From contig NZ_JACJHY010000045.1 in assembly GCF_014138625.1 (NCBI RefSeq), positions 1 through 38,628 on the forward strand: 38,628 nucleotides of DNA, in the 5' to 3' direction. A model generated the notes under the pieces. That model saw nothing but the letters and a program-made list of their open reading frames with translations, searched no databases and had not been told where the DNA came from. This DNA is from Aminobacter ciceronei. Its GTDB lineage: Bacteria > Pseudomonadota > Alphaproteobacteria > Rhizobiales > Rhizobiaceae. A program made the translations under genes and the position numbers. Shown here one piece after another: positions 1-38,628 of the stretch; within the stretch, counting starts at the first letter, position 1, and the number at the start of each line of letters is the position of its first letter.

Positions 1-59
1 GGCATAGTTCGACGGTCGGCATAAACCTGCTTATGCCGCGCGCGGCATAAACAGGTTTC
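1..59. repeat. Palindromic end sequence, left copy
   Basis: These 59 bases are the reverse complement of 38501-38559, with two mismatches (positions 30 and 51). Bases 23-58 form a near-palindrome with arms AAACCTGC/ACAGGTTT outside and TTATGCC/GGCATAA inside, around a GCGCGC core. Beyond it, GGCATAGTTCGACGGTCGGC at 1-20 runs to the window edge. In the tnpC sense the sequence begins right after the codons for Glu-Thr-Cys, so it interrupts the transposase gene. It is probably the terminal sequence of another mobile element whose body lies outside the window. Confidence 0.85.
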
Positions 60-1445
60 GGTGAGAGAGCAAACGATCGCCCAGCGGCCGCCGCCGCCAT
101 CGCTGCCGGCGAACAGGTGGTTCTTGCGGCCGAGCGCAACGGGACGGATGGCCCGCTCGACCGGGTTGGTATCGAGCTCGACACGACCATCGGTGAGGAA
201 GCGGGTCAGTCCGGTCCAACGCGACAGCGCATAGCGGATCGCTTCTGCAAGCGTGCTGCGTCCGGAGATGTGCTGGAGCTGCACTTCCAGCCAGGTGTGG
301 AAGGCGGCAACAACGGGTTTCGATCGCTGCAGCCGCGCCGCAAGCCTAAGGGCCGGCGACTGTCCGCGCACATCCGCCTCGACGGCATAGATTTCACCGA
401 TCCGGCGCAGGGCTTCCGCCGCCACGGGCGATCCGGTCGCTTCGACCACGTCATAGAACTTGCGCCTCGTATGCGCCCAGCAGGCGGCAAGAACGATATC
501 GCCACTGGTAGCGAGCTGTTCAAAGCCGGCATAACCATCGACATGCAGCACGCCCTTGAAGTGCTGAAGATGCGATACCGGGCGCTCGGCCTTTCGGTCC
601 GGCGCAAACAGGTAGACTGCCGCAGGCGGCTCGGGTCCGGCCCAGGGTCGCTGCTCACGGGCATAGACCCACAACCGTCCCGTCTTGGTCCGCCCACGGC
701 CCGGATCGAGTACCGGCACCGGTGTGTCGTCGGCGAACAGATGGTTGGAGGCGAACACGTTCTTCACCAGCCGCTCGTGCAGGGCTTCCAGCCACCAGCA
801 GGCGCCGCCGACCCAACCAGCCAGCGTCGAGCGCGCCAGATCGACACCATGCCGGGCGAAGATCTGCGATTGCCGGTAGAGCGGCGTGTGGTCGCAATAT
901 TTGGAGACCAGCACCTGCGCCAGAAGTGCTGGCGTTGCCAATCCGCCGGCGATCAAGCGCTCCGGCGCAGCCACTTGCGCTACAGTCTCGCAGGCACGGC
1001 AGGCGTATTTCGGGCGCGTGATGCGGACCACGCGAAGCTGTGCCGGGACCCAGTCGAGCATCTCGCTGACGCTCTCGCCGATCGCATGGAGTGCGCCGCC
1101 ACAGCACACACAATACGCTTCTTCGATGTCGAGCCGCACGTCCTCGCGTGGCAGATGATCGGGCAGCGGCTTGCGGTGGGATGGCCGCTCCAATGGTGGA
1201 TGGATGCTCGGCCTGCTCTCCCGGATGCGGGCGATGTCGGCATCGAGGTCTTCCAGGGCGAGCGCCAGCTGGTCGGGATCGAGGCGCTCGGAACGCCGGC
1301 CGAACTGCGCCCGCTGGAGCTTCTTGATGATCGATTGGAGGCGCTCGATCTCGCCATCGCGGCTCTCGACGGCAGCTGCCATATCGCGCAGCAGACGCTG
1401 CAAAAGTGCTGGATCGGACGGCAGATTGTCGAGATCGATCAACAT
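51..1445 (-). pseudogene. tnpC: IS66 transposase TnpC, interrupted at the 3' end
   Basis: This is the DDE transposase of the IS66 family. 465 native codons are intact from the ATG at 1445, starting MLIDLDNLPS. A Cys-rich zinc-ribbon region (CVCCGG and later CRACE) precedes the catalytic core. Core motifs are FADDTPVPVLD, HVDGYAGF and the NPVERAIRPVAL glutamate motif at about residue 430. The family usually runs to about 510-540 residues. Here homology stops after SLTETC and the frame enters the palindromic sequence, staying open to the window edge, so about 50 C-terminal residues are lost. The break is at exactly the same codon number as in the other tnpC at 37115. Activity is doubtful. Confidence 0.88.
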
Positions 1446-6786: not shown

Positions 6787-6798
6787 GAGGAGTCTGCT

Positions 6799-7227: not shown

Positions 7228-7274
7228 CCCCAGCCGCGGCCACTGCCAAATGAGGTTGCATCAGCACTTCATCT

Positions 7275-7296: not shown

Positions 7297-7312
7297 CTCG
7301 ATGGAGGTTAAA

Positions 7313-9564: not shown

Positions 9565-9580
9565 TGGAGGATGACAACTG

Positions 9581-9615: not shown

Positions 9616-9634
9616 GTTTCGAAGGAGGAATGCC

Positions 9635-9910: not shown

Positions 9911-9920
9911 GGTGGACGCG

Positions 9921-13165: not shown

Positions 13166-13176
13166 GGGCCGTGACC

Positions 13177-13497: not shown

Positions 13498-13499
13498 GC

Positions 13500-14876: not shown

Positions 14877-14879
14877 CCG

Positions 14880-16612: not shown

Positions 16613-17823
16613 GCGAGATCGACCCCGGAAAGGAAAAGGAAGCGCCGTACTGGGAAGGCGCTTTGCCGCTCACCGGCGAACCCGCGATGCGGCTTCGCCC
16701 AGAGCCCCCGCGTGTGACGCGGCTGTCGCGTAAGGTGCTAGCTGGTTTCGGTCTCGTCGCCGGCGTCGGCCTGGGCGCTGCTCTGATCTACGCGCTCCAG
16801 ACCCGCAACGCCGGAAAGCCGGAAGAACTGATCTCTACGGATAGCCGCGCCGTCGCCGATGGTCTGGCGGGCCTGCCGCGCGACTACACCGGCCCAATTC
16901 TCGGCCCGCCCCTTCCCGGCGATCTCGGCCGCCCGATCCTCAATGCGCAGAACGCGGTGCCGCCGGCGATCGGCACGCCCGATCCGGGCCTGAGTGCCGA
17001 GGAGCAGCACCGACAGCAGGAGCTGGAATCCGCGCGCACGGCAAAGCTGTTCGCCCCCACCGAAACGCGCCCCGCGACATCCGGCACGCCTGCCACCACG
17101 CAGACGAGCCCGGCCGTTCCGCCGATGCCGGACCTCGCCACGCTCGGGCTCGGCCCCCAGCCGTCGACGCCAACCGCCGTCGAAAGGCAGAATGCGTTCC
17201 TCAATACCCCGCCTGATAAGCGCACCGTCTCGCCCGGTCGCGTTGCGCCACCAGCCTCGCCCTATGTGCTCCAGGCGGGGGCTGTGATCTCGGCTGCGCT
17301 CATCACCGGCATCCGCTCCGACCTGCCCGGTCAGATTACCGCCCAGGTTACCGAAAACATCTATGACAGCCCGACAGGACGTATTCTCCTCGTTCCCCAG
17401 GGCACGCGCGTCATCGGGCAGTACAACAATGATGTCGGTTTCGGGCAGCGACGCATCCTGCTCGTTTGGAACCGGCTGATCTTGCCGAGCGGGCGATCGA
17501 TTGTGCTCGAGCGCCAGCCAGGCGCCGATGCTGAAGGCTATGCCGGCCTGGAAGATGGTGTCGATTATCACTGGTGGGATCTGGCCAAGGCCGCCGGCCT
17601 CTCGACACTCCTCAGTGTCGGCGCCGAATTGGTGACCAATGACGAAGACCGGCTTATGCGGGCCATCCGCGATGGCGCCCAGGACACGATCAACGAAGCA
17701 GGCCAGCAGATCATCCGCCGCCAGCTCAACATCGCGCCGACGCTGACCATCCGTCCGGGCTTCCCGGTCCGCGTCATCGTAACGCGCGACCTCGTGCTCG
17801 AGCCCTATGGAGGAACGCAATGA
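16609..17823 (+). CDS. trbI: TrbI, VirB10-like channel scaffold
   Basis: A 404-residue VirB10/TrbI protein. A short cytoplasmic N-terminus precedes one membrane segment at about residues 43-63. A long Pro-rich periplasmic linker (to about 220) and the C-terminal VirB10 beta-barrel domain follow (YVLQAGAVISAALITGIRSD, then LLVPQGTRVIGQY). It spans both membranes and senses ATP use by TrbE and TrbB. It is the last complete gene of the operon; the next gene overlaps its stop but is truncated. Confidence 0.95.
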   Translation: MSEIDPGKEKEAPYWEGALPLTGEPAMRLRPEPPRVTRLSRKVLAGFGLVAGVGLGAALIYALQTRNAGKPEELISTDSRAVADGLAGLPRDYTGPILGPPLPGDLGRPILNAQNAVPPAIGTPDPGLSAEEQHRQQELESARTAKLFAPTETRPATSGTPATTQTSPAVPPMPDLATLGLGPQPSTPTAVERQNAFLNTPPDKRTVSPGRVAPPASPYVLQAGAVISAALITGIRSDLPGQITAQVTENIYDSPTGRILLVPQGTRVIGQYNNDVGFGQRRILLVWNRLILPSGRSIVLERQPGADAEGYAGLEDGVDYHWWDLAKAAGLSTLLSVGAELVTNDEDRLMRAIRDGAQDTINEAGQQIIRRQLNIAPTLTIRPGFPVRVIVTRDLVLEPYGGTQ

Positions 17824-22100: not shown

Positions 22101-22329
22101 GAACCGTCAGCATTGAAGTCGTCAGCGGATACGTGACCTGGTCCTCGACAACTTGCGGAGCCTGGCCCGGATAGTCGGTGAAGACGATAACCTGAACGTC
22201 TGAGAGGTCGGGTATGGCATCAAGCGGTAGTGTTTTGACCGCGTAGAAACCTGCGCCCGATGCCAACACAGATACAAAGAAGACGAGGACAAGATTGCGG
22301 GCCGACCAGGCGATAAGCTTGGCGATCAT
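19153..22329 (-). CDS. cusA: CusA-type heavy-metal RND efflux pump
   Basis: A 1058-residue HME-RND transporter, full length. The first membrane segment (about 11-30) is followed by the conserved PLDAIPDLSDVQVIVFT region. The proton-relay segment GAMIDAAIVMIEN (399-411, with Asp402) is intact. Methionines matching CusA copper positions occur in YMPTTLPG (M562) and RIDMLSTG (M661), which supports Cu(I)/Ag(I) rather than Zn/Co export. It works with CusB and the TolC-like gene at 27619. The start overlaps the cusB stop by 4 bp. Confidence 0.95.
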   Translation of the reverse strand: MIAKLIAWSARNLVLVFFVSVLASGAGFYAVKTLPLDAIPDLSDVQVIVFTDYPGQAPQVVEDQVTYPLTTSMLTVPKSKVVRGFSFFGISFVYVIFEDGTDPYWARSRVLEYLNAAASRLPEGVSPTLGPDATGVGWVYQYAVVGKERSLAELRSLQDWVVRFAASKAAGVSEVASVGGFVKQYSITVDPARMRAQDVTLAEIGDAVRTSNMDTGGRTVEISEFEFMVRSRGYLKGVADIESIALKTVGGVPLRLGDVARVEIVADERRGIAELNGEGEVASGIVLQRVGANALTVIENAKESLAGIEKSLPEGTTIVPVYDRSKLIEAAIETLKSTLVEESIVVALVTIVFLLHVRSALVAIIMLPVGILMAFAAMKLLGLGSNIMSLGGIAIAIGAMIDAAIVMIENAHKHLERAPPDKPRIQVLIDAAAEVGPALFFSLLIITVSFLPIFTLESQEGRLFGPLAFTKTFAMAAAALLSVTLVPALMVVFVRGRIIPEHRNPLNRLLISLYRPVITGVLKAKTFTILLAIAALAVTVWPARQLGSEFMPNLDEGTLMYMPTTLPGLSVTKAAELLQTQNRIIKSFPEVESVFGKAGRAQTATDPAPTEMFETIINLKPKSEWRPGVTPESLKTEMDAALQFPGVSNAWTMPIRARIDMLSTGIRTPVGVKVYGTDLSEMEKVARQIEAVLRSVPGTSSAYAERVIGGYYLDIVPDRMALGRYGLSIADVQDVISMALGAKVITSTVEGRERYGVSIRYPRALRSDPDSIARDVQVALPGGGFVPLGEVAKVELTRGATSIRTENGQLAVYIFVDIAGRDLGGYVGEAQKAVATEVKLPPGYSVAWSGQFEYLERAQARLKVVVPLTLALIFLLLYLNFRALTETLIVMLSLPFALVGGIWMMWWLGFNMSVAVAVGFIALAGVAAETGVIMLIYLDNAWTEAKEQSVQQRRHLTRADLHNAIMVGAVERVRPKMMTVVAIMAGLLPILWSTGTGSEVMQRIAVPMIGGMISSTILTLVVIPAVYGLVKGWTLSSIQKAEQGEAITEARHLKLAAL

Positions 22330-23783
22330 GGCCGAGTCTCCGCGGGTGCCAGAGCACTGAGCGCTGCCTTGAGATTGCTTTCGGCGTCGATCAGGAAGTT
22401 CGCCGAGACGACCACGCGTTCTCCCTCCGTAATGCCCTCCATGATTCCAGCCACGCTGTCGCCCCGCATGCCGACCTTCACAACGCGTGGCTCGAAGCTT
22501 CCTTCGCCCTTGTCAACTATCACGAACTGGCGGTCACCCGTGTCGATGATGGCGCTGTCGGGCACCGTCACAACAGGCTCGGCTGCGCCCGTCTCGACCT
22601 CAACCTCCGCATACATGTTGGATCGCAAGAGGCCGTCTGGATTGGTCAGTTCGATGCGGATCTGCCCAGTGCGGGTCTGCGCCTGGATTTCGGGATAGAT
22701 CAAGACGACTTTTCCGACGAATTCCTTGCCCGTAAGGCTGCGAACGCGGACAACTGCCTTGTCCCCTACCCGGACAGCATTCAGGTCGTATTCCGGCACG
22801 TCAGCCACGACCCACATGGTGGAGACATCGGCGATCCGGAACAGCGTTTTTCCGGCTTCGGCCATCATCCCTTCGACAGCGGACCGTTCCAGCACCAAAC
22901 CGTCCCGGGGGGCCGTGAGGGTTATCGAGATCGGCGCTTTCCTGGTTTTCTCGATTTCAGCGACGGTCCCTGGGGGCACGCCAAGATTCTCCAGGCGTTG
23001 TCGGCTTCCCGCAGCCGCTCCACCGTCAGCGCCCCCCTTCAGGTCCGCCGCGTAGAGCGCACCTGCCGTTGCGATCTCCTTGGCATATAGGCGCATGAGC
23101 GGCCGTCCCTTTCTGATAGTCTCACCCGTGGTGATGTCAGCCACTTGCTCCACGAAGGCTTCGGTACGAGTTGAGACCACGCTTACTCGGCGCTCATCCA
23201 ACGTAACCGTTCCAGGAACTTTGACGGGCCGTGTGACGGCATTCCTGGCTGCCAGTGCGGTTCTTACGCCTGACCGTTGCAGCTTTCCGGCCGAAATCCT
23301 GACAGTCGATCCGTCATCCGCCTCCCCTTCGTAAACGGGGAGGTAGTCCATTCCCATGGAGTCTTTCTTCGGCACCGGCGACGTATCCGGCAGGCCCATC
23401 GGATTGCGATAGTAGAGGACTTTCCTGTCACCAGAGTCCGTTCCTTCCGCGCTGGCCTGCTTCGCCGTGCCTTTGACGGGATCTTCGAAGCTCACGTCTT
23501 CGCTGGCCAGAACCGCCACGTAGTCGCGGCCATCATTGGTGCGCCTAGGCGTTGCCGAGTACACAGCGTCGCCGTCAGGATGGCGGTAATAGATGACCGG
23601 ACCAGAGGGATCCTGCGCGGCGTTTGACGAAGGTTCCGCCCTGAGTGGGATGTCGAAAAACCACTCTTCGACCGTTTGCACGACGGCTAGGCCTGACAGA
23701 TTGCGCTGTCCGGTCCAGTATCCGCCCGCTCCCGCCCCCGCCGCCACAACGGCAAGGGCCAGGAATGAGCCAAACCTGCTCAT
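22326..23783 (-). CDS. cusB: CusB-type membrane fusion protein with two metal-binding repeats
   Basis: A 485-residue periplasmic adaptor of a copper RND pump with an N-terminal membrane anchor or signal (7-25). Two copies of the YHS-like heavy-metal-binding domain precede the adaptor core: residues 63-96 (start IYYRHPDGDAVY) and 121-154 (start LYYRNPMGLPDT, with DSMGMDY). They align without gaps, but the three Met of the second copy are Asp, Asp and Arg in the first. The core from about 165 holds the hairpin, lipoyl and beta-barrel parts. It overlaps cusA and the FixH-like gene by 4 bp each. Confidence 0.93.
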   Translation of the reverse strand: MSRFGSFLALAVVAAGAGAGGYWTGQRNLSGLAVVQTVEEWFFDIPLRAEPSSNAAQDPSGPVIYYRHPDGDAVYSATPRRTNDGRDYVAVLASEDVSFEDPVKGTAKQASAEGTDSGDRKVLYYRNPMGLPDTSPVPKKDSMGMDYLPVYEGEADDGSTVRISAGKLQRSGVRTALAARNAVTRPVKVPGTVTLDERRVSVVSTRTEAFVEQVADITTGETIRKGRPLMRLYAKEIATAGALYAADLKGGADGGAAAGSRQRLENLGVPPGTVAEIEKTRKAPISITLTAPRDGLVLERSAVEGMMAEAGKTLFRIADVSTMWVVADVPEYDLNAVRVGDKAVVRVRSLTGKEFVGKVVLIYPEIQAQTRTGQIRIELTNPDGLLRSNMYAEVEVETGAAEPVVTVPDSAIIDTGDRQFVIVDKGEGSFEPRVVKVGMRGDSVAGIMEGITEGERVVVSANFLIDAESNLKAALSALAPAETRP

Positions 23784-24181
23784 TGAACGGCCTTAAATTC
23801 CAGGCGGCTCTCGACCGTGTCGGACTCGCCCTGGACTTTGGCTGCGATCGAGAAGCGCCAACCTCCCGCCATTGTCAGGTTGGTCTTGAAGCGGTAGATG
23901 CCCGGCTCGTTTGACGGCAGCGCATCGACGGATGTGGTCATTGCCTCCATCCCTTCAGGAGCCATGTCCATCCTGGTGGTGAACACGACAGCCTGCTCAA
24001 CGGGGGCACCCGTTCGCTTGTCGATGAGTTTTACTGCGACGACGGCATCATTGCCTTGCTCGATCTCATTCTGGACGAGTTGGAATTCGAAGTCTTCGGG
24101 AGCGGCTTGTGCGCTTTCGAAAGGCGCGATTAGCGATAACAACGCCACCATTGCGGCGCGCAGTGCAAATTTAGATTCCAT
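23780..24181 (-). CDS. FixH/YtkA-like periplasmic protein
   Basis: A 133-residue exported protein (signal sequence ending SAQA). The mature part is a predicted beta-sandwich like the FixH/YtkA family (LIDKRTGAPVEQAVVF, later GIYRFKTNLTMAGGWRF). A Met-rich stretch RMDMAPEGMEAM may bind copper. FixH-like proteins recur next to cusB in copper clusters; the role is unknown but may be metallochaperone-like. The stop overlaps cusB by 4 bp. Confidence 0.75.
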   Translation of the reverse strand: MESKFALRAAMVALLSLIAPFESAQAAPEDFEFQLVQNEIEQGNDAVVAVKLIDKRTGAPVEQAVVFTTRMDMAPEGMEAMTTSVDALPSNEPGIYRFKTNLTMAGGWRFSIAAKVQGESDTVESRLEFKAVQ

Positions 24182-24254
24182 GAGTTCAAACGTCCGATTG
24201 TCAGTATTCCGTGACTGTGCACGGCGTTGGGCTTGGCAACCGCCAAGCGACTAC

Positions 24255-24297
24255 AACCGTGCAGGAGTGCCGCACGGTTCCGGCGTTAGAAACGCCG
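24255..24297 (-). other. Two stem-loops upstream of the FixH-like gene
   Basis: AACCGTGC/GCACGGTT (24255-24279, 9-base loop) and CGGCGTT-AGA-AACGCCG (24281-24297) are perfect stems in the 123-bp gap between the Cys-rich gene and the FixH-like gene. Neither is followed by a U-tract on the minus strand. Confidence 0.5.
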
Positions 24298-24304
24298 CTG
24301 ACAA

Positions 24305-24697
24305 TTAGGCTTTGGGAGGCCTCGGTGGAGGTTCGCCAACCAGTGACGACAAGGCGACATCGCGGCCGCCATGGAAGTCCACGTCGACAACAAGCCGAGA
24401 CAGAAACTTGGGAGTCACTGCTCCGACAACGCTGACGAGGCTCGTCGTGCACAATACTGCTAGCGGACAGCCTTTGGCGCAGTCCGGTACGGCACGCTGT
24501 TGGTTCGGGCAGCAAGGCATGCCGTCGGGCATCGAAGCCATCGCTTCCGCAGCCATGACTGGTATCGCCGACGACGCAGCCATAGGTCCCGTGACCAACC
24601 CCATGAGGGCCAGTACCAAGAACGCGCGACCGATGCTGGACCAAAACATTGTGCGGCGGACCATGTCATATCGTGAGCGGGATGAATAGCCGTTCAT
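24305..24697 (-). CDS. Small Cys/Met-rich secreted protein, unknown
   Basis: A 130-residue protein, family not recognised. A hydrophobic segment (about 23-50) resembles a signal or anchor, then comes MASMPDGMPCCPNQQRAVPD followed by CAKGCPLAVLC, with five cysteines in 24 residues. The C-terminus is Pro-rich (GEPPPRPPKA). The Cys/Met motif suggests periplasmic copper binding. The start at 24697 is the longest; alternatives at 24664 or 24649 would sit nearer the signal sequence, and no clear ribosome site decides between them. Confidence 0.6.
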   Translation of the reverse strand: MNGYSSRSRYDMVRRTMFWSSIGRAFLVLALMGLVTGPMAASSAIPVMAAEAMASMPDGMPCCPNQQRAVPDCAKGCPLAVLCTTSLVSVVGAVTPKFLSRLVVDVDFHGGRDVALSSLVGEPPPRPPKA

Positions 24698-24762
24698 AGG
24701 AATGTGACAACCGAGAGATCGTCAGCATCATACCGATCGTTCCGTTCAGAGCAGCCTAATCT

Positions 24763-24793
24763 GGACGAGTCGGACGCTGTGCCCGACCCGTCC
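24763..24793 (-). other. Stem-loop downstream of pseudoazurin
   Basis: GGACGAGTCGG (24763-24773) and CCGACCCGTCC (24783-24793) pair over 11 positions with one mismatch and a 9-base loop. It lies 10 bp past the pseudoazurin stop on the minus strand, with no U-tract after it. It may protect or process the mRNA, or act as a weak terminator. Confidence 0.5.
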
Positions 24794-24802
24794 GTGGCGA
24801 TT

Positions 24803-25252
24803 TTAATTTCCGACCTGGGTGATCAACTCCGCAAGCCGAGTCTTTCCCTTGCCAGGAATCTTTGCATTTTTTGCGGCCTCAACGTTTGCAACGCTGTTGC
24901 CTACCTGAATAACCCCCACCATACCGAGGGCGGCATGAGGCAGGCATTTGTACGCATACACGCCTTCCTGATCAAAGGTGACTTTGACTGGTTCGTTGAT
25001 CTTACCCTTCCACGTCGTCCCGTCCTTCGGCACCAGCAATTCCGTTGTTTCCGAATTATGCCCCTTGTCTGCAGACACGAACGTAACCGTGTCGCCCGGG
25101 GCGATTTTCAGAAAAGCAGGCTCAAATTGCCAGGCCTGTCCGTCTGTGCCCTTGTTGCGCATTTGAACTTCATACTCAGCCGCACTGGCTGCCGCCCAAG
25201 GCGCGCCTACGGCGAAAGCGGTCAACAAAAGCGTGGCAAATATTCTACCCAT
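24803..25252 (-). CDS. Pseudoazurin, blue copper electron carrier
   Basis: A 149-residue type 1 copper protein. The signal sequence ends ASA, and the mature start AEYEVQMRNKGTDG is typical of pseudoazurins. Copper ligands are H65 (KGHNSET), C103 and H106 (YKCLPHAALG) and M111. The Cys-Xaa-Xaa-His-(Xaa)4-Met spacing is that of the family. Pseudoazurins usually pass electrons to nitrite reductase or cytochromes; here the neighbours are copper genes, so it may accept electrons from Cu(I) oxidation. A clear AAGGAG precedes the ATG. Confidence 0.93.
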   Translation of the reverse strand: MGRIFATLLLTAFAVGAPWAAASAAEYEVQMRNKGTDGQAWQFEPAFLKIAPGDTVTFVSADKGHNSETTELLVPKDGTTWKGKINEPVKVTFDQEGVYAYKCLPHAALGMVGVIQVGNSVANVEAAKNAKIPGKGKTRLAELITQVGN

Positions 25253-25288
25253 TTACATCTCCTTGGCTTGGGAAGCGGCCGGACGGCA

Positions 25289-25326
25289 TGCATGGACCCG
25301 ACCATAAAAATGGCCAGGTCCATGCA
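25289..25326 (-). other. Strong nested stem-loop between cusF and pseudoazurin
   Basis: TGCATGGACC (25289-25298) and GGTCCATGCA (25317-25326) are a perfect 10-bp inverted repeat. Inside, after a symmetrical 3x3 internal loop, CCAT-AAAA-ATGG (25302-25313) pairs again. It starts 6 bp past the cusF stop. There is no U-tract after it on the minus strand, so an mRNA-stability or processing role is likelier than termination. Confidence 0.65.
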
Positions 25327-25331
25327 GAGCA

Positions 25332-25613
25332 TCAGCTCGCCTTTTCGATCTTTGTGACGGTGATTGCGCCGTTAACACGATCTGCCTCGAAATCGACCTT
25401 GTCGCCGACCTTGACCTTGCCGAGCAAGGCCGGATCGGTGACGCGAAACACCATCTGCATCGCGCCCATGCCGAGGTTGTCGATCGGACCGTGCTTCAGC
25501 GTAATTTTGCCCTCGGTATCGTTGATTTTCTTCACTTCACCTTCCACTGCCTGGGCTGCGGCGGGAATGAGAAGAGCGGCGATGACCAGTCCAGCTTTCA
25601 AAGATGTACGCAT
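25332..25613 (-). CDS. cusF: CusF-like periplasmic copper-binding protein
   Basis: A 93-residue protein of the CusF family: signal sequence ending AQA, then a small beta-barrel. The copper-binding segment reads HGPIDNLGMGAMQMVFRV. Spacing to E. coli CusF gives H41, M52 and M54 for the His and two Met ligands, but position 49, which is the metal-capping Trp in CusF, is Met here. It probably hands Cu(I) to CusB. It is followed by a strong stem-loop and pseudoazurin. Confidence 0.85.
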   Translation of the reverse strand: MRTSLKAGLVIAALLIPAAAQAVEGEVKKINDTEGKITLKHGPIDNLGMGAMQMVFRVTDPALLGKVKVGDKVDFEADRVNGAITVTKIEKAS

Positions 25614-25644
25614 GGTGTGTTTTCCTTTTGAGGTTTCACTTCGC

Positions 25645-26205
25645 TTAGTTTACGGCCGCTAGGCCAATCATCCCGGCTTCGCGATGTCCGGGAATTAGGC
25701 AGGCGAACTCAAATCCGCCCGTATTCGTGAACTTCCAAAGCATCTCTCCGGTCTGGCCAGAGGCGACACGAATGGCATTGGGATCGTCGTGCTCCATGTC
25801 CGGATTTTTCTGCATCTCGAGCGAGTGCTTCTGATTTGCTTCCGCGGTGGCCAAGACGAATTCGTGGTCGATTTCCCCAGCGTTGCGTATCTTGAACCTG
25901 ACCTGTTCGCCGGCCCTCGCCTGAACGTTGCTCGGTGAAAAAATCATCCGTCCATCGTTCGTCTCCGACATCGTGATCGTGACGAGACGAGCTGGCTTGT
26001 TGGGATCGCCTGGCTCGCCATAGGCTTGCTGCGCGTCATGCGAATGGGGTGGAGCTCCAGGTTTGTCCTGGTGTCCGGCAGCAGGCGTTGGTGGGCTGAG
26101 CGCTGTCGCGGGGTCTAAGCTGGTTGTGCCTGGGAGGACCGACTGCGATGTGCAGGCGGCAACGGTCCCTGCAACCGCTACCAATGCTAGTATTTTCAAG
26201 ATCAT
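25645..26205 (-). CDS. Cupredoxin lipoprotein (CopI-like)
   Basis: A 186-residue protein with a lipobox VAAC (C18), a Pro/His-rich linker and a C-terminal plastocyanin-like domain from about residue 70. Type 1 copper ligands are H114 (EIDHEF), C169, H174 (FACLIPGHREAGM) and M179. A Met/His-rich loop (LEMQKNPDMEHDD) may bind additional copper. It resembles CopI-type cupredoxins of copper-resistance clusters. An 80-bp gap with two short stem-loops separates it from the upstream oxidase gene. Confidence 0.88.
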   Translation of the reverse strand: MILKILALVAVAGTVAACTSQSVLPGTTSLDPATALSPPTPAAGHQDKPGAPPHSHDAQQAYGEPGDPNKPARLVTITMSETNDGRMIFSPSNVQARAGEQVRFKIRNAGEIDHEFVLATAEANQKHSLEMQKNPDMEHDDPNAIRVASGQTGEMLWKFTNTGGFEFACLIPGHREAGMIGLAAVN

Positions 26206-26250
26206 AGCGTATCCAAGTCTGGTTCAGTATTCGGTTGTTGCTGCGTGAGA

Positions 26251-26279
26251 CGAATTTGCATTCGACGGCGGCTATGCCG
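26251..26279 (-). other. Two short stem-loops between multicopper oxidase and cupredoxin
   Basis: CGAAT-TTGC-ATTCG (26251-26264; on the transcribed strand the loop is GCAA, a GNRA tetraloop) and CGGC-TAT-GCCG (26269-26279). They begin 6 bp past the oxidase stop on the minus strand and have no U-tract. Confidence 0.45.
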
Positions 26280-26284
26280 GAAGA

Positions 26285-27604
26285 TCAGCTTTTTGTGTCA
26301 CCTGACGTAGCAGGAGCTGGAACATCGCCCTTCCATTCGTAGGCGACTGTCCCCTCTGGATGTTTGAACCATCCAGGATCTGAGTAGTCATTCGCAGACA
26401 GGCCCTCGCGGACCTTAACTACTGAGAACATCCCGCCCATTTCGATCGCACCGAACTGTCCCCATCCTGTCATCATCGGGATGGTGTTGTCGGGAAGCGG
26501 CATTTCCATTTCGCCCATGTCGGCCATCCCGCGGTCGCCCATTGGCATGTAGTCAGGCTGAACCTTGCGGATCTTTTCGGTGACCTTGGAGTTGTCGACG
26601 CCGATGAACGTGGGCACGTCATGACCCATCGCGTTCATGGTGTGGTGCGACTTGTGACAGTGGATCGCCCAGTCGCCTTCGTACTTGGCATCGAACTCAT
26701 ACGCCCGCATTGCGCCGACCGGGATGTCGATCGATACCTCGGGCCATCTTGCCTCGGGCCTGACCCAACCGCCGTCAGTACAGGTCACCTCAAAGTCGTA
26801 TCCATGCATATGGATCGGATGATTGGTCATCGTCAGATTGCCAACCCTGACGCGCACACGGTCATTCTTCGACACGACGAGATGGCTGATCCCTGGAAAC
26901 ACGCGGCTGTTCCAGCACCACATGTTGAAGTCGGTCATCTCCATGATCTTGGGCACGTAGGTCCCCGGATCGATATCGTAGGCGTTGAGCAAAAACACGA
27001 AATCGCGGTCAACTGGCATGAACTTCGGGTCTTTGGGATGGATGACGAAGAAACCCATCATGCCCATCGCCATTTGGACCATTTCGTCGGCATGCGGGTG
27101 GTACATAAAGGTCCCGCTTTTCACGAGGTCGAACTCGTAGACGAAGGTTTTTCCTGACGGGATCCCAGGCTGTGTCAGCCCCGTTACACCATCCATTCCA
27201 CTCGGCAGGATCATCCCGTGCCAGTGGATCGTGGTGTGTTCGGGGAGCTTGTTCGTCACGAAAATACGGACACGGTCACCTTCCACCGCCTCAATGGTCG
27301 GTCCTGGCGACTGGCCATTGTAGCCCCAAAGGTAGCCTGTCATTCCCGGTGCCATTTCCCGCTCGACGGGCTCGGCCACTAGGTGGAACTCCTTCACCCC
27401 GTTGTTCATCCTATGTGGCAGCGTCCAGCCGTTGAGTGTGACGACCGGTTGATAGTCTGGACCGCTGTTTGGGAAGATTGGAGGCTGCATGTCCGCAGAT
27501 TCCATCAAGGGAGCGTCGGGCAGTCCCATGGCCGAGGTCTTCGTCCACGCAGTCGCACTGGCAAGGAGCGCGCTCGCCCCAAGTAATTGTCGTCTTGAAA
27601 GCAT
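26285..27604 (-). CDS. Periplasmic multicopper oxidase, Tat-exported
   Basis: A 439-residue multicopper oxidase with an N-terminal twin-arginine signal (MLSRRQLLGASALL). All four copper-binding motifs are present: HWH (127/129), HPH (169/171), HPIHMHG (262/265/267), and HCHKSHHTMNAM (H315, C316, H317, H321, with M326 as axial ligand). It probably oxidises toxic Cu(I) to Cu(II) in the periplasm. The C-terminal 90 residues are Met-rich (GMADMGEMEMP). The gene lies 14 bp after the TolC-like gene. CopA-like naming is avoided because CopA also names the ATPase. Confidence 0.92.
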   Translation of the reverse strand: MLSRRQLLGASALLASATAWTKTSAMGLPDAPLMESADMQPPIFPNSGPDYQPVVTLNGWTLPHRMNNGVKEFHLVAEPVEREMAPGMTGYLWGYNGQSPGPTIEAVEGDRVRIFVTNKLPEHTTIHWHGMILPSGMDGVTGLTQPGIPSGKTFVYEFDLVKSGTFMYHPHADEMVQMAMGMMGFFVIHPKDPKFMPVDRDFVFLLNAYDIDPGTYVPKIMEMTDFNMWCWNSRVFPGISHLVVSKNDRVRVRVGNLTMTNHPIHMHGYDFEVTCTDGGWVRPEARWPEVSIDIPVGAMRAYEFDAKYEGDWAIHCHKSHHTMNAMGHDVPTFIGVDNSKVTEKIRKVQPDYMPMGDRGMADMGEMEMPLPDNTIPMMTGWGQFGAIEMGGMFSVVKVREGLSANDYSDPGWFKHPEGTVAYEWKGDVPAPATSGDTKS

Positions 27605-27618
27605 TTGTCGTTCCTTAT

Positions 27619-29073
27619 TCAGTGGCCCGCGCCATCTGCCGCAGCCACGGCTTGGGCAGGCCCCTCACTGCTGGAGGAACCTCCACCGCCGTAAACCGCC
27701 GTCCCAAGATTGGCGTCAGCCAGCCAGAAATTGCGCTTTGCATTGATGGAAAGCATGATCGAATTGACCTTCGCTCGCGTGTCCGCGAGTAGCTCGAAAG
27801 TATTCGTGATCATCCCGTTGTAGGTGAGGACGGATTCTTCCTCGATCTTGGTGCGCAAGGGCACGACATTGTTTCTGTAGTGTCGTGCGATCTCGGCGGT
27901 CGAACGGTACGCGTCATACGCAGTCCGCGCCTCGGAGCGGACGTTGACGGCTTTCTCCGCAAGGAGATTTGCGGCCTGCATGTAAGACAGTTCCGCCTTG
28001 CGCATCCGCGCTTTGCCCGTGTCAAAGATCGGGATGACAAATTCTAGCTCAACGTTGCCGGATACAATCGTCTCCGTCTTGCCGTCTTCTTTCTCTTGCT
28101 CAACTTCCACGCCGGAAAGAATTTCGAGGTCGGTCAGGTAGCGGGTCGCCTCGGTTAACCCGTATGATTTGGCCAATGCTTCCAACTCGAGCCTTGCAAC
28201 CTGCAGATCCACCCGGTTTTTCAGGGCATCAGCTACAACTGTCTGCTTAGCCTTTGAGACTTTCGGCAGAGATGGGAGGGCGTTTGGAACCGAGTATTCG
28301 GTGTCGTTTCCCCAGAGACCCATAAGACGGGTGAGCTCTTCCTTTGCCGTGCGAGCGGCAAGCTTGGCTTCTGCAGTTTGTCCCGCCAGCTCAGCGTAGA
28401 ATACGTGCTCCCTCGCCTGCCCTGCCTTATTAAGCGCTCCTGTCTCACCCAGCTTCTGGGCCAACTCAGACGCAGCGTCGGCGGTAGCCTGAGCCCTATT
28501 CAGGTAGGCAACTGTTTCCCAGGCCGCCACTGCGTTGATCCAGGAGCGGCGGGTGTCGGCAGCAAGTCTTAGAGTCTCCTCTGCAGCCCTAAGTTGCGCC
28601 TGCCGGAATCGGGCATCCGCAACAGCAATCCGCTTAGGCTTGGTGATTAGGGCGAGGATGTTATTTGCCACCGCACTCTCGATGGTGCGGCCCAGACCAA
28701 TCCCGATTACCCCTACCGAGACGGTTGGATTGACGGGCATTGTCTCCTGCCAAACGTCGGCCGCTGATAATCCGATTTCGGCATAGGCGGCTTGCAGGCC
28801 TCTGTTGTTCAGTAGAGCAACCTGAACCGCCGTATCGGCACCGATAGTCTTCTTTTGGATCAGTCCTTTGACGCGTTCAGAAACAATGCGCGCCTCTTCG
28901 CTTGATTGAACCCAGACGGCCTGTTTCCCTGTCACCGAGGCGGTTCGTGCCGAGACAGTATCGAAGCCCGCCATAGGATCGGAAATGCCGCGAACATTTG
29001 CCGAGGTTGCACATCCAGCGGCGATCAGAGGCATCGAAGCGGCCGCGAGCATTTTCAGGAAGCGGCGCGTCAT
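27619..29073 (-). CDS. TolC/CusC-like outer-membrane efflux lipoprotein
   Basis: A 484-residue outer-membrane factor with a lipobox (LIAAGC, Cys21), two long helical repeats typical of the TolC family (about 60-260 and 275-450), and a low-complexity Gly/Ser-rich tail. It would complete the CusCBA-type pump with cusB and cusA although they lie 4 kb away in the same cluster. The start overlaps the small lipoprotein gene by 4 bp. Confidence 0.9.
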   Translation of the reverse strand: MTRRFLKMLAAASMPLIAAGCATSANVRGISDPMAGFDTVSARTASVTGKQAVWVQSSEEARIVSERVKGLIQKKTIGADTAVQVALLNNRGLQAAYAEIGLSAADVWQETMPVNPTVSVGVIGIGLGRTIESAVANNILALITKPKRIAVADARFRQAQLRAAEETLRLAADTRRSWINAVAAWETVAYLNRAQATADAASELAQKLGETGALNKAGQAREHVFYAELAGQTAEAKLAARTAKEELTRLMGLWGNDTEYSVPNALPSLPKVSKAKQTVVADALKNRVDLQVARLELEALAKSYGLTEATRYLTDLEILSGVEVEQEKEDGKTETIVSGNVELEFVIPIFDTGKARMRKAELSYMQAANLLAEKAVNVRSEARTAYDAYRSTAEIARHYRNNVVPLRTKIEEESVLTYNGMITNTFELLADTRAKVNSIMLSINAKRNFWLADANLGTAVYGGGGSSSSEGPAQAVAAADGAGH

Positions 29074-29303
29074 GAGGCGGCTCCCTTATTTGCAGGAGAC
29101 AGCTTGTCGTTAAGCTGACGCCAATTCTTGGGATCGACAGGATGCCTATGGCTGTAGTCGACCACGGAGTGGTGGTGAGTTTTCCGCAGTCCCATGACCG
29201 GATCGGCCGGACTAAAAGCGGGAAGTACGTTCGGTGGATTGGTTGCCGCGCAGCCGGCAACCGACAGCAATGCGAGCATCGCAAGGCTAGCGAGTTTCAT
29301 CAT
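29070..29303 (-). CDS. Small His-rich lipoprotein, unknown
   Basis: A 77-residue protein with a lipobox (SVAGC, C18) and a mature part of about 60 residues containing HHHSVVDYSHRHPVD, which has six His in 12 residues. No family is recognised, but it lies directly upstream of, and overlaps, the TolC-like gene. The His cluster suggests Cu or Zn binding in the periplasm. The second ATG (29300) is slightly better spaced from AGG. Confidence 0.7.
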   Translation of the reverse strand: MMKLASLAMLALLSVAGCAATNPPNVLPAFSPADPVMGLRKTHHHSVVDYSHRHPVDPKNWRQLNDKLSPANKGAAS

Positions 29304-29336
29304 GGACCTGAAATTTGACGTGTGCGGATGCGTGCG

Positions 29337-29381
29337 CCGGAACGGATTCCGGACGCTTCGCGCGACCGCCTCAAGGAGGCG
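29337..29381 (-). other. Two stem-loops upstream of the small lipoprotein gene
   Basis: CCGGAA-CGGA-TTCCGG (29337-29352) and CGCCTC-AAG-GAGGCG (29367-29381) are perfect 6-bp stems in the 81-bp gap after the Cys/His-rich gene. There is no U-tract. Confidence 0.5.
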
Positions 29382-29384
29382 TTG

Positions 29385-29798
29385 TCAGATCAGGCGTCGT
29401 GGGGGGCGAATAAGGGCTGCGTATTCCCCGAGCGGAAGCGCTGTTGCCACAATGGGGGCAAAGCACCGCGCGACAACACGTTCGATGTCGGGACAATCCA
29501 CGGGGACCGCTTGGCACGGAGCGCAATGAACTTCACAGTTCTTGCCGGAGCCATCACGATGATCCGGGTTGCCGCCATGGCTGTCTTGGGACGTGGCGAC
29601 ATGACGATGATCGTGGCTTTTCGACTTTTGAATCGGCTCCAGGTCGTTGAGCACTACAGCCGCTTCAGCATGGAAGCCTGTCTCATCTGCGCCCGCAAAC
29701 ATTCCCGGCTGGAGGGAAGAAAAAACCAAGAGCGCAAACGCGAGAAGCGCGCGAAGCGGCCCCTTGCGATCGGTCAAGATTCGTCGAAAATTAATCAT
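29385..29798 (-). CDS. Cys/His-rich secreted protein, unknown
   Basis: A 137-residue protein of unrecognised family. A signal-like hydrophobic segment spans about residues 15-35. Then comes a His/Asp-rich stretch (KSHDHRHVATSQDSHGG, DHRD) and a Cys cluster CEVHCAPCQAVPVDC. The C-terminus ends Pro/Arg-rich. The layout (signal, His/Cys-rich centre, Pro tail) resembles the protein at 24305. ATG 29798 (MINFRRIL) is preferred over the frame's first ATG at 29834 because it lies nearer the signal. An FNR-like box lies 58 bp upstream. Confidence 0.65.
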   Translation of the reverse strand: MINFRRILTDRKGPLRALLAFALLVFSSLQPGMFAGADETGFHAEAAVVLNDLEPIQKSKSHDHRHVATSQDSHGGNPDHRDGSGKNCEVHCAPCQAVPVDCPDIERVVARCFAPIVATALPLGEYAALIRPPRRLI

Positions 29799-29855
29799 CG
29801 CGCCTCTTGGGCCCGTGTTCGCTCGGATTGTCAAGAACCGCAGCCCTCAGCTTGA

Positions 29856-29869
29856 TTGACTGCAATCAA
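29856..29869 (-). promoter_or_regulatory. FNR/FixK-like box
   Basis: TTGAC-TGCA-ATCAA at 29856-29869 matches the FNR/FixK consensus TTGAT-N4-ATCAA with one mismatch. On the minus strand GACAAT (29832-29827) is placed about right for a -10 box, which would put the site near -42 from a start of transcription at about 29820. The same stretch also holds overlapping dyads (CAATCA-AATG-TGATTG), so another regulator is possible. Confidence 0.4.
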
Positions 29870-29931
29870 ATGTGATTGAGGGTCAGCCTCGCAGACACCT
29901 CTCCAAACAGACGAAGAATGGCTGGTCTGCG

Positions 29932-31887
29932 TCAAGGCTCCACATCGATGACAAGCATCAGCCCGCCACCCCCTTTCATCTCAACATTATTGTTGGTTGT
30001 GTGATGGGGAATGTGACAATGCAGCAGCCATTTTCCTGGCCGCTGCGCCTTCCACAGGACGTCAAACCTCTGACCCGGCGCGACGTTAACAGTGTCAGCG
30101 AAATAGCGTGCGGTTTCGGCCAAGGTCTCGCCATCCACAGCAGCGACCTGGAAAGGCCCACCATGGATATGCATCGGATGAATAGCGGTAGTGTGAGATC
30201 CCACAAAGCGAACCTTGAGCGTCTGCCCCAGCTTCATTTTGATGGTTTCGGTTGCGGGGAACGCTTTCCCGTTGATGGTGAAGAAATTTGGGAACCCACC
30301 CTCCATTGGCATGGACGGGTAAGTTAGCCATTCGCGCTTGAGCCACTCTTGTAGTTGGACCGTGTATTCGAGATCAGCGGGGATCTCGTCTGCCGGATCC
30401 TTAGGGTCGATGATCAACGTGCCGTAAAGGCCCAACGACTGCTGGCGGTCCACATGGTCATGGGTATGATAGAAATAGGTGCCATGCTGGCCGACGGTGT
30501 ACTCATAGGAAAATGACTCACCTGGCTGGATAGGTTTCTGGGTAATCTCCGCTGGACCATCCATCTCGTTGGGAAGGATCAGCCCGTGCCAATGAATAGT
30601 GGTGCTCTCGGGCAAGCTGTTTCTCACGTTAATCCGAATACGGTCACCTTCCGTCACGCGCAATGTCGGCCCGGGGACTTGGTTGTTGTAGGCATAGGCC
30701 TCAACTGTCTCGCCAAGCAGAATGGACCATCGGATCACTGACGCTTCGAGATCAAACACCTTAACGCCGCCTTCGACGCGAGGCTCCAGTAGTTGACCGC
30801 CGAGCGCGTCAGGCGTGGCTTCGAAAGCCGTCAGTCGAGGATCCACAGCAGCCATGTCGCGCATCGACGCCCCTGGCGTGTCGAAGTCCATGATCATGCC
30901 AGGTGCCATGATGACGTCACCAACGTCATGAGCACTCAGCGACATGTTCACCTTGGTGAAGGGATAGGCGTAGCCCCCCAAGAGAAGAATGGTTGCAAAG
31001 GAAGCAATGGCGACAATCTGGGTTGTCGTTGGCGCAAAATGGGGTGGCAAGCTTTCCCCATGCTTTTTGGGCTCATCTCCGCCGTTCGAATCTGCATGGC
31101 CAGACCCTTTCGATCCTGACCCATGCTGGTGCATTGATTTAGCATGTTTGGCGGCCTCTGCGTTGTGGGAAGCCGCGTGGTTCGCATGGCTGTTTGCCGA
31201 GCCAGCTGCTTTCGTGGTTGGGGTGCGGTCAGTCATCAAGCCATGCTTCAAGCCTTTTGAAACCAGCCAAACGTTGAACGGATAGGCCGTCAGAAAGCCG
31301 ACGCTAATACCTAGCGCCATGACGCCCCAGAACAACATCTCTCCTGGCCACATCGCCCGCATGTCGCGACCCATCATCAGTATCGCCATGACAGGTGCCA
31401 TGCCGGCCATCATGGCGTTCATGCTGATGAATTCGGGCATGAATGAATTACGGACGTTTTCCCAATAGGTGCCGCCCATCATGTTCTTCATGAAGAGCGC
31501 CTGGAAAATGAAAAGGCCGAGGGCAAATCCGGCGATGTATTCGATGATGATGTCCAACCACATGGGCAAGCCAAGGACAGCGGTGATGGCCGCGGCGATA
31601 ATGATCCCCGTGGCATCGCCAGCAACGCAGTGGATGGTGCTGCCGATTCCCTGCTTCCAAAGCGGCTTGATAAATTGTTCGTGGGTACCCGGACGGGGTT
31701 CTTTGTCCGCGAGCACATAGAGCAACAAACCGATCGGTCCGAGATAAAGGGTTACAAGGATGAAGCCCCACTTCATCACTGCGGGTTCGGGATTATTGCG
31801 GAACTGATCCCACCCAACATATACCGTACTAAGTACCGCGAGGGTAAACCAGACGGCCAGAATATAATCGATTGGCTGAATGAACAT
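29932..31887 (-). CDS. DUF4396 membrane domain fused to a multicopper oxidase
   Basis: A 651-residue fusion. Residues 1-215 are a DUF4396 polytopic membrane domain (start MFIQPIDYILAVWF) with Met/His-rich parts (FMKNMMGGTYW, SMNAMMAGMAPVMA). A His-rich linker (about 225-285, with HANHAASHN and SMHQHG) and another membrane segment (about 290-312) lead to a periplasmic oxidase domain. Its copper motifs are HWHG (near 430), HTHDH, HPMHIHG and HCHIPHHTTNNN near 620. The residue expected to be the axial Met/Leu of type 1 copper is Asn. ATG 31887 is chosen because AGAGGAG lies just upstream; the frame opens 87 bp earlier. Confidence 0.88.
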   Translation of the reverse strand: MFIQPIDYILAVWFTLAVLSTVYVGWDQFRNNPEPAVMKWGFILVTLYLGPIGLLLYVLADKEPRPGTHEQFIKPLWKQGIGSTIHCVAGDATGIIIAAAITAVLGLPMWLDIIIEYIAGFALGLFIFQALFMKNMMGGTYWENVRNSFMPEFISMNAMMAGMAPVMAILMMGRDMRAMWPGEMLFWGVMALGISVGFLTAYPFNVWLVSKGLKHGLMTDRTPTTKAAGSANSHANHAASHNAEAAKHAKSMHQHGSGSKGSGHADSNGGDEPKKHGESLPPHFAPTTTQIVAIASFATILLLGGYAYPFTKVNMSLSAHDVGDVIMAPGMIMDFDTPGASMRDMAAVDPRLTAFEATPDALGGQLLEPRVEGGVKVFDLEASVIRWSILLGETVEAYAYNNQVPGPTLRVTEGDRIRINVRNSLPESTTIHWHGLILPNEMDGPAEITQKPIQPGESFSYEYTVGQHGTYFYHTHDHVDRQQSLGLYGTLIIDPKDPADEIPADLEYTVQLQEWLKREWLTYPSMPMEGGFPNFFTINGKAFPATETIKMKLGQTLKVRFVGSHTTAIHPMHIHGGPFQVAAVDGETLAETARYFADTVNVAPGQRFDVLWKAQRPGKWLLHCHIPHHTTNNNVEMKGGGGLMLVIDVEP

Positions 31888-31931
31888 GTCGTCTCCTCTC
31901 GCCCCAGACATCGTAACCAACGACCGCACTA

Positions 31932-32495
31932 CTAAAGTGGCTTGCTCCGGAATTTGGCGTGACAGCTGGTACAATCCTGCAGCATCAAGTGGAAAACGTG
32001 CTCAGCAGGTATCTCAGACGGGTCCAATTCTTTCGTCGGGCCCGCTCTCTTGCCTAGCAGGCTACTTCCCATACCCCCAGTACCAGGCTTCATTCTCATA
32101 TTGTCGGTGATGCCGTCCGGAGCGGTGTCTGCCGCCCTGGACAGTGCAGCCGCCAAGGTCTGGACGTGATGAGCGAGCGCCGCGAACTCGTCAGGAAACT
32201 GATCGATTTCGGCTTTGGCGGTAGTAGAACCACCGACAGAGCCACGGGGAAACTCGGCTATCAAGGCATCTCCGGATTTAGTCCGAAGGGTTTCAGCGGC
32301 CAGCTTGAAAGCGGTCGCGTCATAGTCGGTCTTGCCCTCAAACATTCCTGCAATTGTTTTGGCAGCCTCAGCCATGGCTTTCATTGAAGCCTGCCGATCT
32401 TCCACGACCCGATCGTGAGTTATGCCCGGGGCCGCCCCCGCGACTGCAATGCCCGACAGCAGCAAGACAAGCACGGGCGTGCCTGCGCGCCTCAT
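31932..32495 (-). CDS. Cytochrome c'-like protein
   Basis: A 187-residue exported protein (signal to about GAAPG) predicted to be four helices, with a single haem motif CTSCH (175-179) close to the C-terminus, which is the hallmark of class II c-type cytochromes. It lacks a distal axial ligand motif. Cytochromes c' bind NO or carry electrons; here it sits directly after cueR, overlapping it by 4 bp, so it is copper-induced. The following gene starts 44 bp later. Confidence 0.85.
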   Translation of the reverse strand: MRRAGTPVLVLLLSGIAVAGAAPGITHDRVVEDRQASMKAMAEAAKTIAGMFEGKTDYDATAFKLAAETLRTKSGDALIAEFPRGSVGGSTTAKAEIDQFPDEFAALAHHVQTLAAALSRAADTAPDGITDNMRMKPGTGGMGSSLLGKRAGPTKELDPSEIPAEHVFHLMLQDCTSCHAKFRSKPL

Positions 32496-37114: not shown

Positions 37115-38509
37115 ATGGCGATGACGGCTGACCAGCTTCCCGACGATCCGGACGCGCTGAAGGCGATGGTCCTGGCGCGCGACGTCGAGAATGCCCGTCT
37201 GGTTCAGATCATCAAGGAATTGCAGCGTCACCGCTTCGGCCGGCGTGCCGAGACGCTCCCCGAGGATCAATTGCTGCTGGGGCTCGAAGAGGCCGAGCAG
37301 ATCGAGGCCGCCGACGAGGAAGAGAACGAACAAGCATCTCCCGCAGAGCGCCTGGAGCGCGCCAGGAAGCGTCGGACGAACCGCGGCGCGTTGCCATCCC
37401 ATCTGCCGCGGGTGGAAATGATCGTCGACATCGAGGACCATGCCTGCCCATGCTGCCGCAATGGCTTGCATCGGATCGGCGAGGACGTGAGCGAGCGGCT
37501 CGACATCGTGCCAGTGCAGCTGCGTGTAATCGTCGTGCGCCGGCCCAAATATGCCTGCCGCGCCTGTGAGGACGTCGTGGTCCAGGCTCCCGCGCCGGCC
37601 CGGCTGATCGAGGGTGGTCTTCCGACCGAGGCAACGGTCGCCCAGGTGCTGGTCTCCAAATACGCCGATCACCTGCCGCTGTATCGTCAGGCGCAGATCT
37701 ACGCCCGGCAGGGCATCAATCTCGACCGCTCGACCCTGGCTGACTGGGTCGGCCGCGCCGCCTGGCATCTGCGTCCGGTGCATGAGCGACTGCTTGCGAG
37801 ACTGAAGGCCTCGCCGAAGCTCTTTGCCGACGAGACCACCGCGCCAGTGCTCGATCCCGGCCGCGGCAGGACAAAGACCGGGCAACTCTGGGCCTATGCG
37901 CGTGACGACCGGCCATGGGAGGGAAGCGACCCGCCGGGCGTCGCCTATGTCTATGCGCCGGACCGAAAGGCCGAGCGTCCGATCGCTCATCTCGCAGGAT
38001 TCACCGGAATCTTGCAGGTCGACGGCTATGGCGGCTATCGCGTGCTGGCCGACAAAAGCTGCGTCACTCTCGCCTTCTGCTGGGCGCATGTCCGTCGGCG
38101 CTTTTATGAACTGGCAGCAGCCGGTCCCGCGCCGATCGCCAGCGAGGCGCTGAGACGGATCGCCGAACTCTACAAGATCGAGGATGGCATCCGTGGCCGA
38201 TCGGCCGACGAGCGCCGCGCGATGCGTCAGGACAAAAGCCGCGCCATCGTCGCCGATCTCGAACCCTGGCTGCGTGAAAAGCTCGGCCTGATCAGTCAGA
38301 AGACCAAGCTCGCAGAGGCAATCCGCTACACGCTCTCACGCTGGGAAGGCCTCTCGCGCTTCCTTGACGACGGCCGCATCGAGATCGACAGCAACACCGT
38401 CGAACGCTCGATCCGTCCGATCGCGCTCAACCGCAAGAACGCGCTCTTCGCAGGCTCTGACGGCGGCGCCGAACACTGGGCAGTCATCGCCTCGCTGATC
38501 GAAACCTGC
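37115..38509 (+). pseudogene. tnpC: IS66 transposase TnpC, interrupted at the 3' end
   Basis: 465 intact codons from ATG 37115 (MAMTADQLPDDPDALK). An N-terminal coiled region and a Cys-rich zinc ribbon (CPCCRNGLHRIGE, CRACED) precede the DDE core, with D239 (LFADETTAPVLD), D303 (QVDGYGGY) and E430 (NTVERSIRPIAL). Homology ends after LIETC at 38509, then the frame runs into the palindromic sequence and stays open to the window edge. About 50 C-terminal residues are missing. The break is at the same codon number (465) and the same Glu-Thr-Cys motif as in the left element. Confidence 0.9.
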
Positions 38510-38559
38510 TTATGCCGCGCGCGGCATAAACAGGTTTATGCCGACCGTCGAACTATGCC
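38501..38559. repeat. Palindromic end sequence, right copy
   Basis: Reverse complement of 1-59 with two mismatches. It contains the 36-bp near-palindrome (38502-38537) and then TATGCCG in two direct copies (38537-38543 and 38554-38560). The near-palindrome includes AAACCTGC from tnpC and its mirror ACAGGTTT, so part of the target is echoed inside the inserted sequence. Confidence 0.85.
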
Positions 38560-38628
38560 GAGTGCCTCTTTGACCATGGCGGTTGGAGTGCGCTTCTCCC
38601 GCCGTTTTGGCCGGAGATCAGCCGTTGG
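38560..38628. other. Interior of the inserted element (window edge)
   Basis: The 69 bases after the palindromic sequence are not IS66. They stay open in the tnpC frame, but no protein family can be recognised in so short a stretch. This is probably the start of the element that split tnpC. Confidence 0.5.

Follow-up and report, generated by a model that had tools for sequence, protein, structure and literature searches.

RIT elements are described as three overlapping tyrosine-recombinase genes within about 3.5 kb, with an inverted repeat of 28-29 bases and an overlapping palindromic sequence (PMC3414803, PMC2864759, PMC8138268), and in C. metallidurans one of them reportedly inactivates a tnpA gene of the IS66 family (PMC3414803, PMC2864759). 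A paper of 2012 stated that their mobility had still to be shown and found it difficult to see why three recombinases should be needed (PMC3414803). In known RIT elements, RitA has two core-binding domains and RitC an extra C-terminal helix. The sections of the RIT descriptions available to us contain no variable six-base spacers, no palindrome common to two inverted core sites, no freedom of orientation, no carry-over of spacers from one home to another and no recurrent hits at one IS66 codon. Further, no description of a double site was found in the available text of the literature on RIT, SE and GInt elements, a scope outside which the main RIT paper, Ricker 2013, falls.

Strand-biased circularizing integrative elements (SEs) are similar to the element described here in their tyrosine recombinases, imperfect inverted repeats and target specificity, as well as in a six-base spacer with a fingerprint/footprint rule, but they are larger and carry intA, CDS2, intB and CDS4, and the available part of the paper describes no second inverted core site (PMC10214605). 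GInt islands, with three integrases, share the use of several tyrosine recombinases, target specificity, 6-nt staggered cuts and a heteroduplex change of the attachment site, but differ in their ginABCD genes, their cargo and their direct imperfect repeats, and no palindrome is described in the sections at hand (PMC5385486). In the accessible text of both papers, the six-base spacers change at the attachment site (PMC10214605, PMC5385486). Neither gene set was found here: three recombinase genes fill the contig that carries the element, in place of intA-CDS2-intB-CDS4, and the RIT ends enclose no fourth gene of a ginABCD operon and no cargo. The coupling sequences of Tn916 are variable sequences of six bases carried between targets; Tn916 and Tn554 differ from the present element in their recombinase sets, and we know of no palindromic double site in either. 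Both are mentioned in the available part of the SE paper (PMC10214605). RIT elements as such, including one within an IS66 gene, have been described before; our own inference, from sequence comparison, is the two-way site with the record kept by the spacers.

The window spans the whole of contig C45 (38,628 nucleotides) in a genome of 6.77 Mb and 96 contigs. Near each end it carries the same 20-base palindrome, P20 (TTATGCCGCGCGCGGCATAA, or TTATGCCG-CGCG-CGGCATAA), at positions 31..50 and 38510..38529 (no strand assigned), in both cases directly after codon 465 of an IS66 tnpC gene. Allowing up to three mismatches, the 18-base core of P20 has no further match in the window, none of 100 shuffles gave two such matches, and the pair is not expected by chance. 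At least one of four strings of palindrome letters occurs in 754 papers; among the literature matches listed, which begin with those holding the most strings, none has the full letters of P20, and the best contains two of the four. On either side of P20 lie six variable bases (N6), one set toward the target and one (the inner N6) toward the end of a RIT element, and these resemble target codons read toward P20. At the right end, the 5' part of tnpC A (37115..38509, + strand, 465 codons) ends in the N6 ACCTGC (38504..38509, + strand) and is followed by P20, the inner N6 ACAGGT (38530..38535; ACCTGT on the - strand, read toward P20) and the ritC end of the RIT (38536..38628, + strand, to the contig end), which consists of the terminal inverted repeat TTATGCCGACCGTCGAACTATGCCGAGTG and then sequence common to the ritC end of contig C83. 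The left end is read on the opposite strand: there the 5' part of tnpC B (51..1445, - strand, 465 codons), cut at Glu-Thr-Cys, ends in ACCTGT (51..56, - strand, read toward P20) and is followed by P20, GCAGGT (25..30; ACCTGC on the + strand, read toward P20) and the first 24 bases of the same terminal inverted repeat (1..24, - strand, to the contig end), which by elimination would be the ritA end.

The initial annotation had noticed one palindrome interrupting two different IS66 tnpC genes at the same codon, and this is real: both genes have exactly 465 stop-free codons, the last three being Glu-Thr-Cys, Pfam identifies both products as IS66 transposases, and the two are of different types, tnpC A being 65% identical to the B-type copy on contig C17. 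A 36-base block, AAACCTGC-P20-ACAGGTTT (+ strand), is identical between 23-58 and 38502-38537, and a further 29 bases match in inverted orientation (1-29 versus 38531-38559), a block that takes in the greater part of an N6 together with 24 bases at the start of the RIT end. What the annotation had taken for one shared 50-base sequence is really a target-like N6, P20, a second target-like N6 and a RIT end.

The reading frame of tnpC A remains open through P20 into the RIT end up to the contig edge (38501-38626), so that the truncated transposase would acquire a new tail; an annotated LMB1 gene likewise reads on, to position 6318 of a plasmid relative (L006). Between the two cut IS66 genes, at 4804-17823 and 19153-31974, the window carries conjugation genes (TraG/VirD4-like, TrbL-, CagX- and TrbI-like, and a weak TrbE/TraG P-loop match) and metal-efflux/oxidase genes (an AcrB-family pump, an HlyD-type fusion protein and two multicopper oxidases).

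The recombinase genes lie on C83 (3,403 bases), a contig of the same genome that starts and stops in the inverted repeat and carries three consecutive, overlapping tyrosine-recombinase genes, ritA, ritB and ritC (107-1369, 1348-2289 and 2271-3287, from the first possible starts); the one other open reading frame of at least 150 aa is antisense to ritC. The three products are 88-93% identical to those of the annotated trio on the plasmid relative L006, whose genes overlap by 4 bases, twice, and all of whose three proteins contain the Pfam domain PF00589 (Phage_integrase). In all three C83 proteins GLR, HxxRH and LxH...Y were found by eye, which we take to be the tyrosine-recombinase catalytic motif. 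The terminal inverted repeat is 29 bases long and identical at the ritA and ritC ends, P20 lies six bases outside one inverted repeat, and the insertion measures 3,430 bases in two empty-site comparisons, all in agreement with the overlapping genes, the repeat of 28-29 bases, the overlapping palindrome and the length of about 3.5 kb given for RIT elements.

Ten exact RIT ends were found in this genome, two on C83 and eight at contig ends (C2, C7, C17, C37, C44, C81 and both ends of C45). At four of these eight junctions (C17, C81 and the two in the window) P20 and a tnpC 5' half are present, and at the other four (C2, C7, C37 and C44) a tnpC 3' half, which fits four RIT copies; the best explanation is that the four collapsed during assembly and broke the contigs. 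The window lacks recombinase genes because the assembly broke at these collapsed copies. By comparison with intact relatives, copy A pairs with C2, where its 3' part most likely lies, and C81 (copy C) with C44; both B copies would then, by elimination only, pair with C7 and C37. An eleventh RIT end with two mismatches, on C78 (L099), is a possible older fifth copy.

Empty and occupied sites can be compared directly on plasmids, for which a search returned 166 records, four of them with at least 80% query cover. On S. meliloti LMB1 pB the 5' half of tnpC is followed by P20, then by three overlapping tyrosine-recombinase genes and finally by the 3' half of tnpC; another LMB1 replicon has an identical IS66 copy that is intact and differs from the occupied one by 3,430 bases. 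The same length separates pRi2659 from pRi1724, in which the tnpC site is without the element: the two differ by a single 3,430-base insertion with flanks that are 99.6% and 99.3% identical. The initial annotation could have been wrong in two ways, namely if the sequence were a normal IS66 3' end or the result of an assembly error that duplicated one end of the contig at the other. In favour of these, P20 sits at the very ends of the contig and the two genes both belong to IS66; against them, close relatives of A and C that are intact have an ordinary IS66 C terminus and no P20, the palindrome also cuts HNH-type and desaturase genes, and the arrangement recurs in other genomes and, together with the trio, on complete plasmids; we give these explanations practically no credence. 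The annotation's other suppositions fared well: a site-specific mobile element aimed at the 3' part of tnpC is what the sequences show; its candidate, a RIT element, is present as the trio on C83 and adjoins the same junction in plasmids; the recombinase that it had missed in the window is on that contig; and the genome search with the junction sequence that it had proposed returned the same arrangement in other genomes and complete plasmids. Beyond it are the position of P20 beside either RIT end, six-base sequences that look carried over, and non-IS66 targets in relatives. We consider it quite probable that the locus as a whole is a RIT junction at the Thr-Cys/Ala codons toward the 3' terminus of the IS66 tnpC gene, with the two-site mechanism proposed below.

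An exact scan of genome contigs for P20 gave 73 copies in 70 stretches, many of them in metagenome-assembled genomes, with record titles covering Proteobacteria, Acidobacteria, Planctomycetota, Verrucomicrobia, Myxococcales, Actinomycetota, Anaerolineae and others; since the scan required an exact P20, it cannot show constancy of the palindrome. Viral contigs held no exact match. A RIT end adjoins 62 of the 73 copies (61 by an arm match six bases away, and L036, where the spacing is shifted and ritA follows), ten have none, and one is cut by a contig end. The trios beside P20 range from near-identical down to 35% (RitA) and 48% (RitC) identity with those of S. meliloti, so that the exact palindrome also accompanies recombinases of no more than 35-60% identity.

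With regard to placement, P20 lies beside ritA in 19 and beside ritC in 14 of 59 deduplicated junctions (26 could not be placed), which rules out that it is part of one fixed RIT end. It is at the ritC end in copy A, in C81 and in the four plasmids read, and at the ritA end in C17. In relation to the target its position is constant, on the tnpC 5' side in all readable IS66 flanks and with the tnpC 3' half at the far end. In three loci (L025, L041 and L077) P20 is present at both RIT ends; L041 and L077 have the same flank on both sides, and their double P20 may reflect either flipping or an assembly artefact. The ten copies without an adjoining RIT end invite the explanation that P20 is an independent, ends-only mini-element of 20 bases that inserted in tnpC first, the RIT landing later at its edge, and its outer eight bases are indeed the same as the RIT ends on both sides. 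None of the ten, however, reads as a simple insertion of P20 between a 5' half and a 3' half: in five, P20 looks like the meeting point of two target 5' halves (L022, L045 and L060; L019 and L072 with less certainty), in two (L052 and L076) P20 lies seemingly in ordinary coding sequence, with the frame read by eye, and the reading of three (L024, L043 and L046) is ambiguous. A symmetric free insert would also leave the constant 5'-half side of P20 unexplained, and we regard such an origin as very improbable.

Anatomy, copy number, empty sites and N6 patterns are directly observed; the circle, strand exchange and flipping that follow are inferred from them. We lean towards a palindromic double site that would allow integration in either orientation, flipping, tail-to-tail joining of targets and six-base spacers that record addresses. 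The RIT, about 3.4 kb with ritA-ritB-ritC and 29-base terminal inverted repeats, would be excised by its tyrosine recombinases as a circle with the joint RIT(C end)-N6-P20-N6-RIT(A end). P20 would represent two 8-base recombinase arms flanking four bases, so that the joint would hold two inverted core sites, each arm-N6-arm. Crossover at either core site would leave P20 attached to the 5' half of the target and the opposite RIT end attached to the 3' half, and since either site could be used, integration would be possible in both orientations with P20 always beside the 5' half. N6 would be the strand-exchange overlap; the uncrossed site would retain the N6 of the earlier home, and the P20-side junction would tend toward the incoming N6 and the far junction toward the target's own. 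The inner site would still be usable, both for flipping in place and for joining two target 5' halves around P20. The model predicts a counterpart to such joined 5' halves, a RIT between two 3' halves without P20, and in L192 a RIT does lie between an IS66 3' part and the 3' part of another transposase (the latter named by eye); when the L192 3' half was used to look for the partner of L019 in three genomes, the only hits were the L192 copy and a single weak one (36%). The RIT reaction would become testable with a defined two-core-site joint, exact empty sites and N6 histories that can be read.

The spacers were compared across the same 59 junctions. A constant inner N6 is ruled out, as identical RIT ends in this genome bear three different ones. 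The inner N6 equals the target-side N6 in 18 of the 59 (21 of 65 before deduplication); 20,000 shuffles within target classes, which were the analyst's own flank patterns, averaged 6.6 and never exceeded 16. The two N6s differ in the other 41, and copying of N6 by a hairpin is unsupported.

In this genome, the B copies have ACCTGT as 5' N6 and ACTGCC as 3' N6, and both recur as inner N6s on the ritC side, ACCTGT in A and ACTGCC in C81; an excised B-copy circle would bear one or the other on its ritC side. Together the two sequences make up only 2 of 36 N6s at like sites in other genomes, a small pool, and the chance of both matches is about 0.003. The inner N6 of the B copies, ACCTGC, is also the P20-side N6 of A and C81, a match that is weak evidence because ACCTGC accounts for 15 of the same 36. 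In a planctomycete genome (G306), TGTGAT, TGCGAT and TGCTGG are common to L054, L070 and L073 in inner, P20-side and far positions, on the assumption that the far end used for L073, which comes from elsewhere on the same 422,087-base contig, belongs to that copy. The sharing of N6s among copies in these two genomes fits carry-over from earlier homes, and such six-letter tags could offer a way to trace the moves of one element within a genome. In addition, the P20-side N6s of L054 and L073 are the same although their targets are a desaturase gene and an HNH-like gene (by eye), as if the element had jumped between unrelated targets.

A native N6 at the far end with a different N6 beside P20 is clear in six of ten copies examined: L006, L007, L008 and the present copy C by intact relatives (the far-end N6 of copy C being one base off native), and, from the reading frame alone, L054 and L070. 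L005 agrees weakly and L039 is ambiguous or contrary; A, with both N6s equal, and B have no bearing. For tnpC B, a near search of plasmids gave no relatives, and the nearest ones in two family genomes (about 75%) are too distant to give a native N6; a plasmid search for a relative of L028 found no place covering most of the query. The incoming N6 on the P20 side in these six of ten copies resembles the fingerprint/footprint rule of the available SE text (PMC10214605) and would suit a palindrome that acts as a folded single strand, with an 8-bp stem and a 4-base loop, in a strand-biased copy-out in place of a double-stranded two-way site. Such a route has already been proposed for SE elements and integron cassettes, and TTATGCCG-N4-CGGCATAA is kept while its central four bases vary and need not be palindromic. 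Simple hairpin copies, however, are not what the 41 of 59 unequal spacer pairs look like, and relatives have empty sites, though perhaps never occupied ones; we judge the folded strand unlikely, if well worth considering, and prefer the two-way site.

In addition to the Thr-Ala/Cys site of IS66 tnpC, relatives target the IS66 DNN motif (L058, L080 and L082) and HNH-type genes (L070, with DUF222, and L044). L054 lies in a gene for a fatty-acid desaturase, and L021 in a sphingomonad gene whose match to nucleotidyltransferases is weak. By eye only, L073 and L051 are HNH-like, L062 is IS66-like, and L025, L061, L074 and L078 are antisense to a tyrosine-recombinase RHTF motif. Pfam matched nine of 17 flank proteins above the cut-off and two only below it (L020 and L059), and gave no match for the other six (L029, L045, L062, L073, L076 and L088).

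The variability of the palindrome was seen in 20 trio loci chosen by protein, drawn from the 28 family genomes, out of 297, in which RitC had a match at 1e-60. Seven have TTATGCCG-N4-CGGCATAA with CGCC, ACAT, ATAT or CGCA as N4, and L137 and L144 have diverged palindromes. No recognised palindrome was seen in the other 11; most of these are incomplete or run off a contig, but in L135 the full trio and the sequence on either side of it are available. A simple search found inverted repeats at the trio ends in seven of the 20 (L136, L139, L141-L144 and L147), several other loci being contig-cut, partial or with genes only partly placed, and in L141-L144, which have inverted repeats and both flanks, the palindrome lies six bases outside one end only. 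The arm-N4-arm pattern occurs in 11 of 397 genomes of the order, the reversed pattern in none of the genomes listed, and outside the present genome a RIT end adjoins 10 of its 12 places (not L180 and L184). The pattern could serve as a sequence tag for finding RITs, including in fragmented assemblies broken by them.

Several loci have unusual arrangements. L137 holds two neighbouring trios in the same direction, one of them partial, and its diverged palindrome has other arms (TTATGTGG..CCACATAA), while L056 holds two neighbouring trios head to head, again with one partial. In L026, a diverged and broken trio (35-46% identity) stops about 1.4 kb before the P20 of a closely related trio. At position 5898 of L194, a RIT end with the variant palindrome CAATGCCGCGCGCGGCATTG lies at an apparent IS66 DNN site, with equal N6s on both sides.
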